This document shows positions 3,325 to 33,909 of a stretch of 33,909 nt of DNA, piece after piece. This DNA comes from an uncultured Spartobacteria bacterium (lineage in GTDB: Bacteria; Verrucomicrobiota; Verrucomicrobiia; Chthoniobacterales; Terrimicrobiaceae), in contig CALFPA010000105.1 in the NCBI GenBank assembly GCA_937919825.1, positions 1 through 33,909 on the forward strand, given 5' to 3'. The position numbers and the translations under genes are program-made. Numbering within the stretch: the stretch's first letter is position 1; each line of letters starts with the position of its first letter. The notes under the pieces are model-generated. The model saw only the letters and a program-made list of their open reading frames with translations. It ran no database searches and was not told where the DNA came from.

Positions 3325-3735
3325 TCAACTCAACCCGAGTTGCTTGGCAGCCGCGTTCAACTTCGCATCGCAGGTGACCAACCGGATTTTGAGCCGATCA
3401 GCCAACTCCAAGTAGGCGGCATCGTAGGCCGAGAGATCGAATTGCACGGCCAAATGGAACATCCGGCGACGGGCTGGCCCGCCGGGAAGATCCTCCAGCC
3501 TGATCGGCACCTGCTGCAAGGCATCGATGGCCTCCGAAACATCCTCCGGCGCCAGCCTTTTTCGACGCAGAGCCGAGCGCAGCAAATTCATCATTTCGTA
3601 GTGCCAAAGAGCAGGCACCGAGAGTTGCACGGTTCCTTTGATCAGTTGAGATAGAAGCCGATCCGCTTCCTCGGAGAATTCGTCGGCCAGAATCCAAGCC
3701 CCACAGAAAGAAGCGTCGGCCACGACTTGCTTCAT
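3325..3735 (-). CDS. PIN-domain toxin (VapC-like)
   Basis: This 136-residue PIN-domain protein has the acidic residues of the nuclease site: Asp7 (VADAS), Glu47 (HYEMMN), Asp105 (YDAAYLELA) and Asp123 (VTCDAKL). VapC toxins cleave RNA such as initiator tRNA or rRNA, but the target here is unknown. Its start overlaps the antitoxin stop by 4 nt (ATGA), the standard toxin/antitoxin layout. The pair sits at the 3' end of the folD-containing run, convergent with the TPR gene. Everything needed for function appears intact. Confidence 0.88.
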   Translation of the reverse strand: MKQVVADASFCGAWILADEFSEEADRLLSQLIKGTVQLSVPALWHYEMMNLLRSALRRKRLAPEDVSEAIDALQQVPIRLEDLPGGPARRRMFHLAVQFDLSAYDAAYLELADRLKIRLVTCDAKLNAAAKQLGLS

Positions 3736-3986
3736 CGCCGCCCCTCTTCAATCAGGGATTTCAAAGATCCCTTCCTGGACTTGGATCGCGCTCGGATTTT
3801 CCGAAAAGCCGCCACCAGATCGGCATCGGTCTTAGAGCCACCTTCCACGCCGGAGGAGAGAAGGGCGACTCGCCGCCCGCGTTTGGTGATCCAGATCCGG
3901 CTGCCTTTCGAGGCGAGCTCCACAAGTGAGGAGAACTTGTTCTTGGCCTCGAAGGTGCCGAGGGAGATAGCGTTGCCTGCTTGCAT
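3732..3986 (-). CDS. antitoxin of the Phd/YefM type, partner of the 3325-3735 toxin
   Basis: This 84-residue protein starts MQAGNAISLGTFEAKNKFS, followed by a segment with ITKRGRRVALL. That is the N-terminal DNA-binding fold of Phd/YefM antitoxins, here with 'ITKRGRRVA' in place of the usual 'ITRHGRPVA'. The basic C-terminal part (KIRARSKSRKGSLKSLIEEGRR) would bind the toxin. The frame runs 17 codons further upstream, but the ATG at 3986 matches the family start. Such antitoxins usually repress their own promoter, which would lie in the 62 bp between it and folD. Confidence 0.82.
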   Translation of the reverse strand: MQAGNAISLGTFEAKNKFSSLVELASKGSRIWITKRGRRVALLSSGVEGGSKTDADLVAAFRKIRARSKSRKGSLKSLIEEGRR

Positions 3987-4048
3987 GATTTTCAAGCTGG
4001 CCAACAATCTGGCCTGTGTCAAGAGGGTGCCAGACACGACCCCAAAAA

Positions 4049-10793: not shown

Positions 10794-10844
10794 CATTGTT
10801 TTTCTTTGCCCGCCGCGCGGTTGGCGGGTAGTAACTGGCGCTGT

Positions 10845-12041
10845 TTGAATCAAGCGAGTCCATTTCAGTTCAAAATATTCTGGGCGGCCGTCACCACGCT
10901 GTCCTTCCTCGCCATCGCGGCGGCGATCACGCTCGTTGGCTCGATTGTTGTCGGGGGTCTTTCGTTTCTTCAACCGGTTTTGATCCCGGTCGCCGTTGCC
11001 GCCATTCTGGCATTCCTGCTCGAGCCCGTGGTGAAATTTTTCATGCGGCTGCGTTTTAGCCGACTCGCCAGCATCGCGGCGGTCTATGTGATTTTTGCGT
11101 GCCTGTTCGTGGGCTTGATCGTCTACATCGCACCGCCGGCCTACCGGCAGGGGAAGGCATTCACTAAAAATTTCCCCGCCTACATGATGAAGACCGAGGC
11201 GCTGGCCACGAGCACGCTGAACAACCTTCATAAACTCGCCGAGTTCGATCCCTTCGCCGCCCACGAAGGGCCCCAAACCGCCGGTGACCAGATCACCTCG
11301 ATGGTTCGCACAGGGATCAAGGACGCCGGAACCTGGGTGCAGCAAAAACTCCCCGACCTCGCGGTGGAATCTGGTCGCTTCCTACAACGCAGCCTCGGCG
11401 GCTTCCTCGGTGTTTTTGGATTTTTGCTGAGCCTCATCCTCGTTCCGATTTTCCTGTTTTTCTTCCTGCGAGACAGCCCCGCGATTGCGGAAAATTGGAG
11501 CCGCTACCTGCCGCTGCGCGCCTCTCCCCTCAAGAGCGAGATCGTTTCGTTGGTGGGTGAAATCAATTCCTACCTCATCAGTTTCTTCCGCGGCCAACTC
11601 CTTGTGAGCCTGATCGATGGCGTGATGATATCTGTGGCGTTACTATTTCTTGGGCTAGATTTTGCGATTCTGATCGGCATCATGGTTGGAGTCCTCGGGC
11701 TGATTCCCTACCTCGGGATGATGATCTGCTACATCCCGGCGGTCATTATCGCCGCCGCCCAATTTGGAGACTGGTTTCACCCCGCTTTGGTAACCCTGAT
11801 TTTCATCCTCGCGAACAACATCGACGGCATTTTTATCGCCCCGAAAATCGTCGGCGAGTCCGTCGGTCTCCACCCGCTCACGGTCATCATCTCCGTATTG
11901 GCCTGGAGCTTGATTCTCGGCGGTCTCCTCGGCGCCATCCTCGCCGTTCCGCTTACAGCCACGATCAAGGTTCTCTTAAAAAGATATTTCTGGGACCGCC
12001 CGGCAAGTGCTCCGGCAGACCCTCCCGATCGATCCCCCTGA
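10845..12041 (+). CDS. AI-2E family (PerM/TqsA-like) membrane transporter
   Basis: This is a polytopic protein of about 398 residues. Two hydrophobic helices near the N-terminus (AAITLVGSIVVGG and LIPVAVAAILAFLLEP), a soluble central part, and a C-terminal helix bundle with FFFLRDSP, GLIPYLGMMICYIP and LGGLLGAILAVPLTA are hallmarks of the family. Members export autoinducer-2 or act as Na+(Li+)/H+ antiporters; the substrate here is unknown. No ATG is available. TTG at 10845 (LNQASPFQFK) puts a short tail before the first helix, while TTG at 10806 would add 13 residues encoded across an inverted repeat (10809-10828). The start is therefore uncertain. Confidence 0.85.
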   Translation: MNQASPFQFKIFWAAVTTLSFLAIAAAITLVGSIVVGGLSFLQPVLIPVAVAAILAFLLEPVVKFFMRLRFSRLASIAAVYVIFACLFVGLIVYIAPPAYRQGKAFTKNFPAYMMKTEALATSTLNNLHKLAEFDPFAAHEGPQTAGDQITSMVRTGIKDAGTWVQQKLPDLAVESGRFLQRSLGGFLGVFGFLLSLILVPIFLFFFLRDSPAIAENWSRYLPLRASPLKSEIVSLVGEINSYLISFFRGQLLVSLIDGVMISVALLFLGLDFAILIGIMVGVLGLIPYLGMMICYIPAVIIAAAQFGDWFHPALVTLIFILANNIDGIFIAPKIVGESVGLHPLTVIISVLAWSLILGGLLGAILAVPLTATIKVLLKRYFWDRPASAPADPPDRSP

Positions 12042-12356
12042 CGCAGTCAAACCGGCGAAATCAAAATCCCCCTCATCGCCGCCAAAACCTCCCGTAGAGC
12101 CGTCGAGAATTTCCCGTAGGGCAGGCGTCCCGACTGACATCAAATGACTTACAACCGCAGGCGAGACGCCCGTGCCACATTCCCTAGGACGGCGCATTCG
12201 CGCCTGAAACTTGGGCCGACACGGAGGTCAGCCCTCCAAGCATTCGCTCCATTCGCTCAATTCGCAGGCAAAATTTCAGGTTTCTACTCCCTCCGCGTCC
12301 CAGCGTCCCTGCGGGAGATGGTAGTAACTTCCAAGCGCACGGAGGTGGTTGGGATT
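12042..12356. repeat. 315-bp intergenic region holding a composite R1-R2 repeat
   Basis: There is no credible gene here between the convergent AI-2E and PIN-toxin genes. Bases 12190-12240 are one copy of the R1 repeat (GGCGC..CGCGCCTGAA, CTTGGGCCGACACGGAGGTC, GCCCTCC). Bases 12236-12318 are one copy of R2 (CATTCGCTCC.., GGCAAAATTTCAGGTTTCT, CTGCGGGAG). Bases 12110-12185 (GTAGGGCAGGCGTCCCGAC.., GAGACGCCCGTGCCACATT) also resemble sequence beside the R1 copy near 33740-33800. The same R1-then-R2 order is found at 33582-33740 in inverted orientation. Confidence 0.75.
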
Positions 12357-12776
12357 TCAGCGCAGGAATTTTTCCGCAGGCGAGAGGCGGAGGCCTGGGA
12401 TGCGCGAAAATTCGGCGGTATTCAGGGTTGCGAGGTCGAAATCATGGTGCAGACAAGTTGCTGCAATCAGGAGGTCGTGTGCGCCGATGGCCACGCCTTG
12501 CGCGGCGAGGTCCGCTTTCAGGCGGGCATGGGTTTTTGCCTCTTTTATTCCAAACGGGAAAACCACATGCGATGTGACGAGCACTTCGAAAAAGTCGCGA
12601 CGGGACTCCTGTCGCCTCCCGGACGGCGCGCGAAAAACTCCCTCCAAAAACTCGGAGACCGTGATCGCGCTGATCGCCGCTTCCGAGTCGCCCACAACCT
12701 GCTCGTTGAATGCGATGGCATCCCACCGACCGCGCTCCTGCGCGATCAACACCAAGGTATCGAACAGCACACTCAT
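12357..12776 (-). CDS. second PIN-domain toxin (VapC-like)
   Basis: This 139-residue PIN protein has Asp6 (MSVLFDTLVLI), Glu42 (TVSEFLEGV), Asp101 (GAHDLLIAATCL) and the C-terminal LATLNTAEFSRIPGL typical of VapC. The usual fourth acidic residue is replaced by Asn119, as in many VapC proteins. The start at 12776 overlaps the antitoxin stop by 4 nt (ATGA), and the frame's 3 extra codons upstream are not needed. The toxin appears intact although its antitoxin is shortened, so either the toxin is poorly expressed or the antitoxin still works. Confidence 0.86.
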   Translation of the reverse strand: MSVLFDTLVLIAQERGRWDAIAFNEQVVGDSEAAISAITVSEFLEGVFRAPSGRRQESRRDFFEVLVTSHVVFPFGIKEAKTHARLKADLAAQGVAIGAHDLLIAATCLHHDFDLATLNTAEFSRIPGLRLSPAEKFLR

Positions 12777-12985
12777 TCCGCCCAAGGGTCGCGCTGCGGG
12801 CGATTCGACTCACTGCGGATTTTCTTCAAGTCGTCGGAAAAGGAATCCGCTTCCTCGGCCGACATGGGGACCCGCTTCCTCCAAAACTCAGCCAACTCGC
12901 GCCCGGTGGTTTTTTTTAGTCCCTCGGGAACCAGGCGCGCCACGGGTTTGCCATTCCGTGTGAGAACGGCCGCTTCGCCAAGCAT
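12773..12985 (-). CDS. antitoxin of the Phd/YefM type, N-terminally truncated at a repeat
   Basis: This 70-residue frame starts MLGEAAVLTRNGKPVARLVPEG. In Phd/YefM antitoxins the 'VLTRNGKPVARLVP' motif is normally preceded by about 20-25 residues forming the first helices of the DNA-binding fold; these are absent. The remaining C-terminal region (LAEFWRKRVPMSAEEADSFS, DDLKKIRSESNRPQRDPWAE) is the toxin-binding part and looks complete. The first codons (12978-12985) lie inside repeat copy R2b, which suggests the repeat replaced the 5' end and promoter. It could still neutralise toxin if translated. It might be better called a pseudogene. Confidence 0.65.
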   Translation of the reverse strand: MLGEAAVLTRNGKPVARLVPEGLKKTTGRELAEFWRKRVPMSAEEADSFSDDLKKIRSESNRPQRDPWAE

Positions 12986-13090
12986 TCGCGTTCATTCGCT
13001 CCATTCGCGGGCAAAATTTCAGGTTTCTGCTCCCTCGGCGGCTTAGCGTCACTGCGGGAGGTTTCTCTGTTTGCATCGTGGCTTCGTGTG
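12978..13090 (+). repeat. R2 repeat copy b, upstream of the truncated antitoxin
   Basis: Starting with CCAAGCATTCGC, this matches 12236-12318 with few differences (GGCAAAATTTCAGGTTTCT is shared, then a CTCCCTC..GCG tract and CTGCGGGAG). It continues into GCATCGTGGCTTCGTGTGGG, which is also found inverted near 33582. Between it and the EamA gene (13091-13171) no feature is seen. Confidence 0.75.
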
Positions 13091-13171
13091 GGAATCCCTT
13101 CTTGAGCATTGGGGTTATTTTCCAAGCGATGTTTTTCCCGCCTTGAGGAGTGATGCCAGTTTCGTTCCAAC

Positions 13172-14131
13172 ATGATTGCTGGGAACATCGAGAGGGTGGC
13201 GGGGCGGCCTGCCGGGTGGCGGGTCGTGCTGGCTTTTGGGATCGTCTATCTTGGCTATGGGCTGAATTTTTTGGCGATCAAGGCGGGGGTGGAATCGATG
13301 CCGGCGTTTCTTTTTGCGGCATCCCACATTCTCGGTGCGGGGGGTGATTTTGATGGCTTGGACGGTGGTGCGCGGGGGGGGGTGTTGATGCCAAGGGCCA
13401 ATATCGGGCGCGCGGCGTTCGCGGCGTTGTTTCTTTTTGTGGGTGGGGTCGGGCTTGTGACACAGGGCGAAAAACTCGGTGTTCCGTCGGGCATCGCTGC
13501 CATCATCAAAGCCTCGGTGCCGCTATGGGTGGTCCTCCTGGAATTTCTACGGCCGAAGGGCGAAAAGCCCGGCGCGATCGTGTTGGCAGGGTTGGTGGCT
13601 GGAGCAGTGGGGGTGGTTTTGCTGGTGGCACCGAGGCTTTCCGGGGCGATGAATTCCGGGGGAACATTGGGGACGGCGTTATTGCTGCTGTCGGCACTGT
13701 TGTTCGCCATCGGTTCGATTTTTGTGAGGAATTACCCTCCGGATACCGATGCGGTGCGAAGCTCGATGTGGATGATGGTTTTTGGCGGGTGCTACTTGGT
13801 TTTTCTCGGAGCGGTGCTCGGGGAATTCGGTCAAATCACGGAGGCCGAGTTCGGCTGGAAGACGGTCTCGGCATTTTTGTTTCTGCTGTTTGTGCATTCG
13901 CTGGCGGCATTCACGGCGATGAATTGGCTCCTCAGCCACCTGCCGGCATCGATTGTTACGACGAAGTTTTTTGTTTCTCCCGCCGTGGCGGTGCTGGCGG
14001 GGTGGTTGGTGCTGGGGGAAACGGTGGTGCTGGGGGAAACGGTGGGGCTGGAAACGCTGGCGAGCCTGCTCTTAATCCTTGCGGGGGTGGGGGTGGTCTT
14101 CGTGGGGAGGTATCGCGCGGCGAAGGGGTGA
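13172..14131 (+). CDS. EamA/DMT-family permease with internal homopolymer irregularities
   Basis: This 319-residue polytopic protein is of the drug/metabolite transporter superfamily. It has two EamA halves (first half YGLNFLAIKAGVESMPAFLFAA, VGLVTQGEKLGVPSGIAAII and VPLWVVLLE; second half AMNWLLSHLPASIVTTKFFVSPAVAVLAGWLVLGE, split here in description only). Between residues 56 and 74 the frame reads GDFDGLDGGARGGV instead of a membrane helix. The next frame reads AGVILMAWTVVRGG, as expected for helix 2. An extra G in the run 13339-13344 and a missing G in the run 13374-13382 would explain this. An 18-bp perfect tandem duplication lies at 14008-14043. Function may be impaired, unless these are sequencing errors. 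Confidence 0.78.
   Translation: MIAGNIERVAGRPAGWRVVLAFGIVYLGYGLNFLAIKAGVESMPAFLFAASHILGAGGDFDGLDGGARGGVLMPRANIGRAAFAALFLFVGGVGLVTQGEKLGVPSGIAAIIKASVPLWVVLLEFLRPKGEKPGAIVLAGLVAGAVGVVLLVAPRLSGAMNSGGTLGTALLLLSALLFAIGSIFVRNYPPDTDAVRSSMWMMVFGGCYLVFLGAVLGEFGQITEAEFGWKTVSAFLFLLFVHSLAAFTAMNWLLSHLPASIVTTKFFVSPAVAVLAGWLVLGETVVLGETVGLETLASLLLILAGVGVVFVGRYRAAKG
14008..14043 (+). repeat. perfect 2 x 18-bp tandem duplication inside the EamA gene
   Basis: The unit GGTGCTGGGGGAAACGGT occurs twice in succession and adds six residues (VLGETV) beside the conserved 'LGE' of the last EamA helices. It keeps the frame. A related GGGCTGGAAACG follows directly, so the site may expand by slippage. Confidence 0.9.
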
Positions 14132-14197
14132 TTTTTCGTGCCTCGGGTTGGCGTTCGAGCTGGGGTTTTCAGCGTATTCCGAGATTTTGGTTTGAAC

Positions 14198-14220
14198 ACA
14201 CGGGGCTTCCGTGTCTTTCT
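14198..14220 (+). terminator. possible short hairpin terminator after the EamA gene
   Basis: ACACGG (14198-14203) pairs with CCGTGT (14209-14214) around a 5-nt loop, and CTTTCT follows. The tail is short of T, so this is only a weak candidate. It lies 24 bp before the lipoprotein start and might act in its leader instead. Confidence 0.3.
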
Positions 14221-14237
14221 ATCACTTCTCAATTCCT

Positions 14238-14642
14238 ATGAAAAAATCTTCCCTGATCGTTCTTGGTTCCGCAGCGGCCCTGTTATTGCTCGCGGCTTGC
14301 GAAACCAGCGACAAAAATTCCTCCCGTTTCAACCGTGGCACGAACCGCTTCGGATACGGAGCCGCCGGCACCCAATACGCCACGCCGACACCGACGCCGG
14401 AGGGCTATGTCGAGCAACCAGTCGTCGATCCCTTTGCTCCGCCGACCCCGACGCCATTTGCAACGCCGCCGCCAGCGCAAGCGGCTCCGCGTGATATTTC
14501 TTATGGCACACCGGTGCCCGGCAAAGCGGGTTTTGTCACCAGTCCCCACTCGCCCTACGCGGGGTATGTGGATGTGCGTGGCTTTCCCCCCGGCACCGAG
14601 GTGAAGTGCCCTTACTCGGGCAAGATTTTTTTGGTGCCCTGA
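14238..14642 (+). CDS. small Pro-rich outer-envelope lipoprotein
   Basis: This 134-residue protein has a lipoprotein signal: MKKSSLIVLGSAAALLLLAAC, with lipid attachment at Cys21 (LAAC box). A low-complexity linker carries TPTPTPEGY and PPTPTPFATPPP. The C-terminus has GYVDVRGFPPGTEVKCPYSG followed by KIFLVP, a tail I associate with small verrucomicrobial lipoproteins of unknown role. The start at 14238 is the only one that yields the signal peptide. The 3' end overlaps the tyrA frame, so the two may be co-translated. No function can be assigned. Confidence 0.85.
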   Translation: MKKSSLIVLGSAAALLLLAACETSDKNSSRFNRGTNRFGYGAAGTQYATPTPTPEGYVEQPVVDPFAPPTPTPFATPPPAQAAPRDISYGTPVPGKAGFVTSPHSPYAGYVDVRGFPPGTEVKCPYSGKIFLVP

Positions 14643-33460: not shown

Positions 33461-33909
33461 GAGGGTAAAAAATACCTCCCAGAAATCCCAAGTCCTGCCA
33501 ATGCGATTTTGCATCGAGTTCCAAAAAGGAAAAAAAGGGTTAGCCGGAGTCGCTGTGCTGGCTGGAGGGGGGCAAGGGGCTCACACGAAGCCGCGAAGCG
33601 CACGGAGAAAAAATCCCGCAGTGGCGCTGGGCCGCAGAGGAGAATCGGGAAATTTTGCCTGCGAATGTGGCAAATCCACGCGAATACAGGGTAGGGTCGC
33701 CTCGCCGAGCCGACCCAAGATTCAGGCGCGGATGCGCCGTTTCAAGGAGCGTGGGGCATCTCGCCCACATTGCTCCATCCATTTTGGGGCGGGGGACGCC
33801 CATTCTCCTTGAGGCGCCCGGCGGCGCGGACGCCCTGGCAGTAAATTTCTCTCCGTGATCTCTTTGTGCTTTGACTCGGTCGGGCCCACTCCCTCGCCCT
33901 TCGGGCCAA
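33461..33909. repeat. oprB upstream region with composite R2-R1 repeat
   Basis: Bases 33461-33581 are the oprB leader with no convincing promoter. Bases 33582-33672 are R2 copy c (inverted: CACACGAAGCCGCGAAGCGC, CCCGCAGTGGCGCTGGG, GAAATTTTGCCTGCGAATG). Bases 33691-33740 are R1 copy d (GTAGGGTCGCCTCGCCGAGC, CGACCCAAGATTCAGGCGCG, GATGCGCCGT). From 33742 to 33812 a segment is bounded by the inverted pair TCAAGGAG/CTCCTTGA. CTCTCCGTGATCTCTTTGTG (33850-33869) is like repeat tails common in this kind of genome. No gene is seen. Confidence 0.7.

Follow-up and report, generated by a model that had tools for sequence, protein, structure and literature searches.

What is left of a toxin-antitoxin pair when the gene of its antitoxin breaks off in a repeat? 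The question is raised by a locus of an uncultured Spartobacteria bacterium, in the window analysed here (the whole stretch of 33,909 nucleotides, contig CALFPA010000105.1), where an antitoxin ORF short of its 5′ part lies directly 5′ of the gene of a PIN-domain toxin. The account that we find probable, with some reserve, is that of a displaced VapBC remnant that has lost autoregulation and whose toxin is probably attenuated or silent. The features concerned are:

12357-12776, minus strand: VapC-type PIN toxin of 139 aa (profile, fold, homologue alignment)
12773-12985, minus strand: 5′-truncated Phd/YefM antitoxin ORF of 70 aa (ORF, profile match, sister alignment)
12979-12980, no strand: junction where the toxin-antitoxin fragment meets the repeat (sister DNA alignment, repeat match)
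12978-13060, plus strand: right copy of an 82-bp repeat module, which gives the antitoxin its minus-strand start codon (repeat match)
12236-12317, plus strand: left copy of that module, in direct orientation (88% identity with the right copy, E about 1e-22)
12116-12317, plus strand: composite (mosaic) intergenic repeat, with modules at about 12116-12183, 12186-12247 and 12236-12317
12318-12355, no strand: unique spacer separating the left repeat from the 3′ end of the toxin gene (genus comparison)
13061-13171, plus strand: upstream region of the EamA transporter gene, which follows the repeat without a break also in the sister genome

The reference for the comparison is a sister-species genome (G003, a Verrucomicrobia MAG; pair at L010/L039/L073, JAPLTG010000028.1); it and the window's genome are both draft assemblies. 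The sister antitoxin is intact, with 92 aa and the N-terminus MESTLTVTEAARNFSDLINRVVYRGDAAVL, and matches PF02604 over profile positions 2-42 with 34.6 bits, above the cut-off. The window's antitoxin, which begins MLGEAAVLTRNGKPVARLVP, consists of the counterpart of sister residues 25-92 preceded by Met-Leu from the repeat. Its residues 4-21 align only with positions 25-42 of the 74 in the PF02604 profile, and the score of 16.2 bits (E = 0.0092) stays below the cut-off of 29.8. The N-terminal DNA-binding fold that characterizes Phd/YefM proteins (PF02604) is thus missing from the ORF, as the first-pass annotation had claimed. The C-terminal toxin-binding tail of this antitoxin subfamily is complete, with 94% identity to the sister over the common part.

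That annotation had named two observations that would speak against a truncation, namely repeat-free orthologues starting at the same Met and a start codon further upstream, and neither is found. All 13 Phd-type relatives recovered for this toxin subfamily across the phylum (the orthologue L010 and 12 homologues, L012, L014 and L118-L127) have a full-length antitoxin with an [ST]VTEAARNF-like start. An in-frame TGA lies three codons 5′ of the new Met, and upstream of 12985 the missing N-terminus is absent in every frame, with no earlier start codon. An alternative upstream start and a frameshifted N-terminus are therefore both ruled out. Neither a second antitoxin copy nor a separate N-terminus was found in the window's genome; a paralogue acting in trans is likewise rejected, the best other match in the genome having 27% identity. 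The new ATG, read on the minus strand, lies within the repeat copy 12978-13060 and has no clear Shine-Dalgarno sequence. No sigma-70-like site was found by scanning near the clipped start, which says little because the intact sister pair has none either; the combined sigma-70 and terminator scan is uninformative at both pairs. An Rfam scan of 12000-13300 gave no match.

The distribution of the pair in the two genomes bears on how the antitoxin came to be clipped. An orthologous pair without the repeat, anticipated in the first-pass annotation, does exist in the sister, where it lies beside a LysR gene and is 92% identical in DNA to the window's fragment over 624 bp, without any indel. At the sister EamA locus, a single composite repeat runs straight into the EamA upstream region, and there is no toxin-antitoxin pair. 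Conversely, the pair is missing from the corresponding LysR locus of the window's genome. Its LysR gene (L111, G000:C69, near 5700, minus strand), the counterpart of the one adjoining the sister's intact pair, appears frameshifted after about codon 185. The window's fragment (12356-12979) extends from antitoxin codon 25 on one side to just past the toxin stop on the other and sits between the direct repeat copies 12236-12317 and 12978-13060. The position of the pair fragment thus differs between the window and the sister. Since the sister has the repeat-EamA arrangement without the pair and the pair elsewhere without the repeat, the pair fragment has been relocated between repeat copies. The relocation is relative to the sister: either position may be the ancestral one, and the cut may or may not have coincided with the move. 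Upstream of the sister pair is an AT-rich region with a repeated GATTATCT motif, which is absent at the window's pair. As both the antitoxin N-terminus and this sister-type upstream region are lacking, autoregulation should be lost.

At the fragment/repeat junction, identity to the sister pair is 8-10/10 per block on the inward side and 1-5/10 on the outward side, and outside the junction it falls to 27% over 75 nt. The break at 12979/12980 and the repeat beginning at 12978 coincide, as had been noticed from the letters alone, and no more than about 2 bp are common to fragment and repeat. Modules of the composite repeat are dispersed in the window's genome (36 matches) and in the genus, and a further copy in inverted orientation occupies 33582-33765, near the contig end. 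The window's genome yielded a single Y1-type transposase. The left and right copies diverge by 12% and may have differed before the rearrangement. The 38-bp spacer 12318-12355 has no match in 15 further genomes of the genus.

The surroundings are variable as well. In several other genus members, an AI-2E-type permease gene is directly followed by a lipoprotein gene; at this site (10806-14642) the window has repeat, clipped pair, repeat and EamA gene in between. The sister contigs break near the equivalent of 10806-14642, within repetitive adhesin-like sequence. In the EamA ORF (13172-14131, plus strand), about 13 residues (codons 58-70) are in a different frame from that of the sister's protein, which two indels in G runs, compensating each other, could explain; they are either real or due to consensus error. 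Elsewhere in the window (3325-4037, minus strand) lies a second pair, apparently intact, in which the gene of a PIN-domain toxin (3325-3735) comes after that of a Phd-like antitoxin (3732-4037).

For the toxin of the clipped pair, 12776 is the most likely start; its ATG there overlaps the antitoxin TGA (ATGA overlap). It matches the PIN profile PF01850 over positions 1-119 of 120 with 48 bits (cut-off 23.6), and its predicted structure (mean pLDDT 95) has as top fold match Rickettsia felis VapC2 (3zvk; E 1e-10, TM 0.85), with a further match to 3dbo_B (E 5e-7). These Pfam and PDB matches are by sequence or fold. The metal-binding acidic residues of the active site (D6, E42, D101 and E122) are all present. 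Residue 8, the third position of the D-T-S/N motif, is Leu (S8L). In 57 homologues this position is N (29), S (16), D (5), T (4) or C (2), with one gap, and it is never hydrophobic aliphatic; hence none of the 56 scored homologues departs from this set of five residues, whereas the window's toxin has Leu. The regularity reflects conservation among homologues and is not a formal VapBC family criterion. The first reading, according to which the toxin keeps its key residues, is therefore right for length, fold and acidic residues but not for residue 8 of the motif. S8L is a single base change, seen in one MAG. For R. felis VapC, PMC4229260 reports that the equivalents of N8 and T115 are touched by the catalytic E120, and that the mutations T7P, T115I, N117I and E120G destroy or reduce toxicity, residue 8 not being among those reported there. 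Because of the Leu at position 8, the window's toxin is most likely attenuated or inactive. This adds a third possibility, a weakened toxin, to the two initially envisaged, a neutralizing C-terminus or a silent locus, and it is the better-supported one.

Among relatives, the two halves of the antitoxin can part company. The antitoxins of L011 (1899-2168, minus strand) and L013 (1268-1513, plus strand) have a different N-terminus without any Pfam hit, and share with the window's antitoxin only a C-terminal stretch (34-37% identity over 43-44 aa). The toxins of both loci belong, in the toxin tree, to the subfamily of the window's toxin. These antitoxins represent a natural swap of the N-terminal part, which supports the view that the C-terminal tail is a separable module. 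No pair was found in viral contigs, and plasmid matches to the pair are all below 60% identity.

Selection has left its mark on both genes. Measured against the sister, the toxin has a dN/dS of 0.13 and the shared part of the antitoxin one of 0.10; dS is 0.26-0.27, which falls inside the range of other orthologues (0.12-0.38, EamA being higher). The low dN/dS values show past constraint, which may predate the truncation. Together with the lack of indels and the complete C-terminus, these values fit either a recent move or an antitoxin that still neutralizes. In the toxin tree, the window's branch is longer than the sister's (0.065 versus 0.025), the direction of relaxation, on only about ten residue changes.

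Assembled into a history, the displaced remnant would originate from a chromosomal type II pair of the VapBC-5 kind (Phd/YefM antitoxin and PIN-domain VapC) in a verrucomicrobial MAG. The part that extends from codon 25 of the antitoxin to just past the toxin stop would have been relocated between direct repeat copies beside the EamA gene, leaving behind the DNA-binding N-terminus, the native start, the promoter and the operator region; recombination or template switching via the repeats would be the natural mechanism. With the in-frame ATG supplied by the repeat, a 70-residue product with a complete toxin-binding tail could be made, but presumably there would be no autoregulation, and neither a ribosome-binding site nor a promoter is obvious. 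With an attenuated toxin the cell could tolerate the disrupted control, and the locus would probably be a remnant heading to loss. Against this reading, the dN/dS values of both genes and the indel-free alignment over the whole fragment are unlike long neutral decay.

These same data give some weight to the main rival account, possible though rather less than probable, in which the pair still works: a minimal 70-residue antitoxin would neutralize VapC, transcription would come from an outside or fortuitous promoter, and only autoregulation would be lost. The C-terminal residues are wholly kept, the antitoxin has a low dN/dS with neither stops nor indels, and L011 and L013 show toxins of this subfamily paired with antitoxins alike in the C-terminal stretch only. 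Moreover, VapB touches VapC via its C-terminal third (PMC4229260), and PaaA2 offers a precedent (PMC8630535). Set against this are the S8L change in the toxin, the start codon without a clear Shine-Dalgarno sequence or any promoter-like site found, and selection that may predate the truncation. A bolder proposition appears unlikely: the dispersed repeat would have removed the DNA-binding part and provided another start codon, and so turned an ordinary Phd-VapC pair into a working one, with a regulator-free minimal antitoxin and a compensating change in the toxin active site.

Two further accounts concern the junction itself. An error of assembly or consensus, in a MAG contig rich in repeats, is an improbable source of the truncation or of S8L. 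Both are indeed seen in one MAG only, sister contigs break near the locus, and the EamA and LysR genes of the window's genome have other frame oddities; but a junction overlap of about 2 bp is too short for a k-mer misjoin, the repeat-EamA continuity recurs in the sister, and neither a separate N-terminus nor a second copy was found in the genome. Least probable of all is insertion of the repeat in place into the antitoxin gene, as the first-pass annotation implied. The repeat does abut the truncated gene, as then stated, and belongs to a dispersed family; however, what lies beyond it is not the antitoxin N-terminus but the region upstream of EamA, next to which the sister too has a repeat copy, and the downstream flank of the toxin also departs from the sister just past the stop codon. 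What stands of that claim is the contact between repeat and cut; the gene was most probably not split where it lay, its fragment having been relocated between repeat copies.

The pair has a close known counterpart in VapBC-5 of Mycobacterium tuberculosis (3DBO), with the same pairing of a Phd/YefM-domain VapB (PF02604 in the intact sister) and a PIN VapC (PF01850), a family assignment made for 3DBO in PMC5086665. The window's pair differs from it by an antitoxin without the N-terminal DNA-binding part and by Leu at the third position of D-T-S/N. The best fold matches of the toxin are VapC2 of R. felis (3ZVK) and VapC1 of H. influenzae (6NKL), with TM 0.82-0.85; the acidic set is the same, N119/E122 replacing the fourth aspartate. 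The R. felis antitoxin is of MazE/AbrB type and intact, and N8 of the R. felis VapC corresponds to Leu in the window's toxin. The repeat resembles REP/BIME-like elements, being likewise short, mosaic, intergenic and present in many copies, a likeness that concerns dispersal; GTAG REPs are reported to be abundant in O. terrae, another verrucomicrobium (PMC3733652). Most likely, the pair is a remnant that is fading out and does not represent a system of a new type. The locus is a clear snapshot of how a single rearrangement can deprive a toxin-antitoxin pair of its regulation, and both the intact copy in the sister and the empty site are there to compare it with. Should the clipped antitoxin work, it would show, in nature, a way in which antitoxins lacking a DNA-binding domain could come about. 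PaaA2, from PaaR2-PaaA2-ParE2 of E. coli O157:H7, is such an antitoxin, without detectable DNA-binding motif, and its origin is left as an open question (PMC8630535). The two belong to different families, and PaaR2-PaaA2-ParE2 has a separate operon regulator and a studied function, whereas no regulator is evident for the window's pair.
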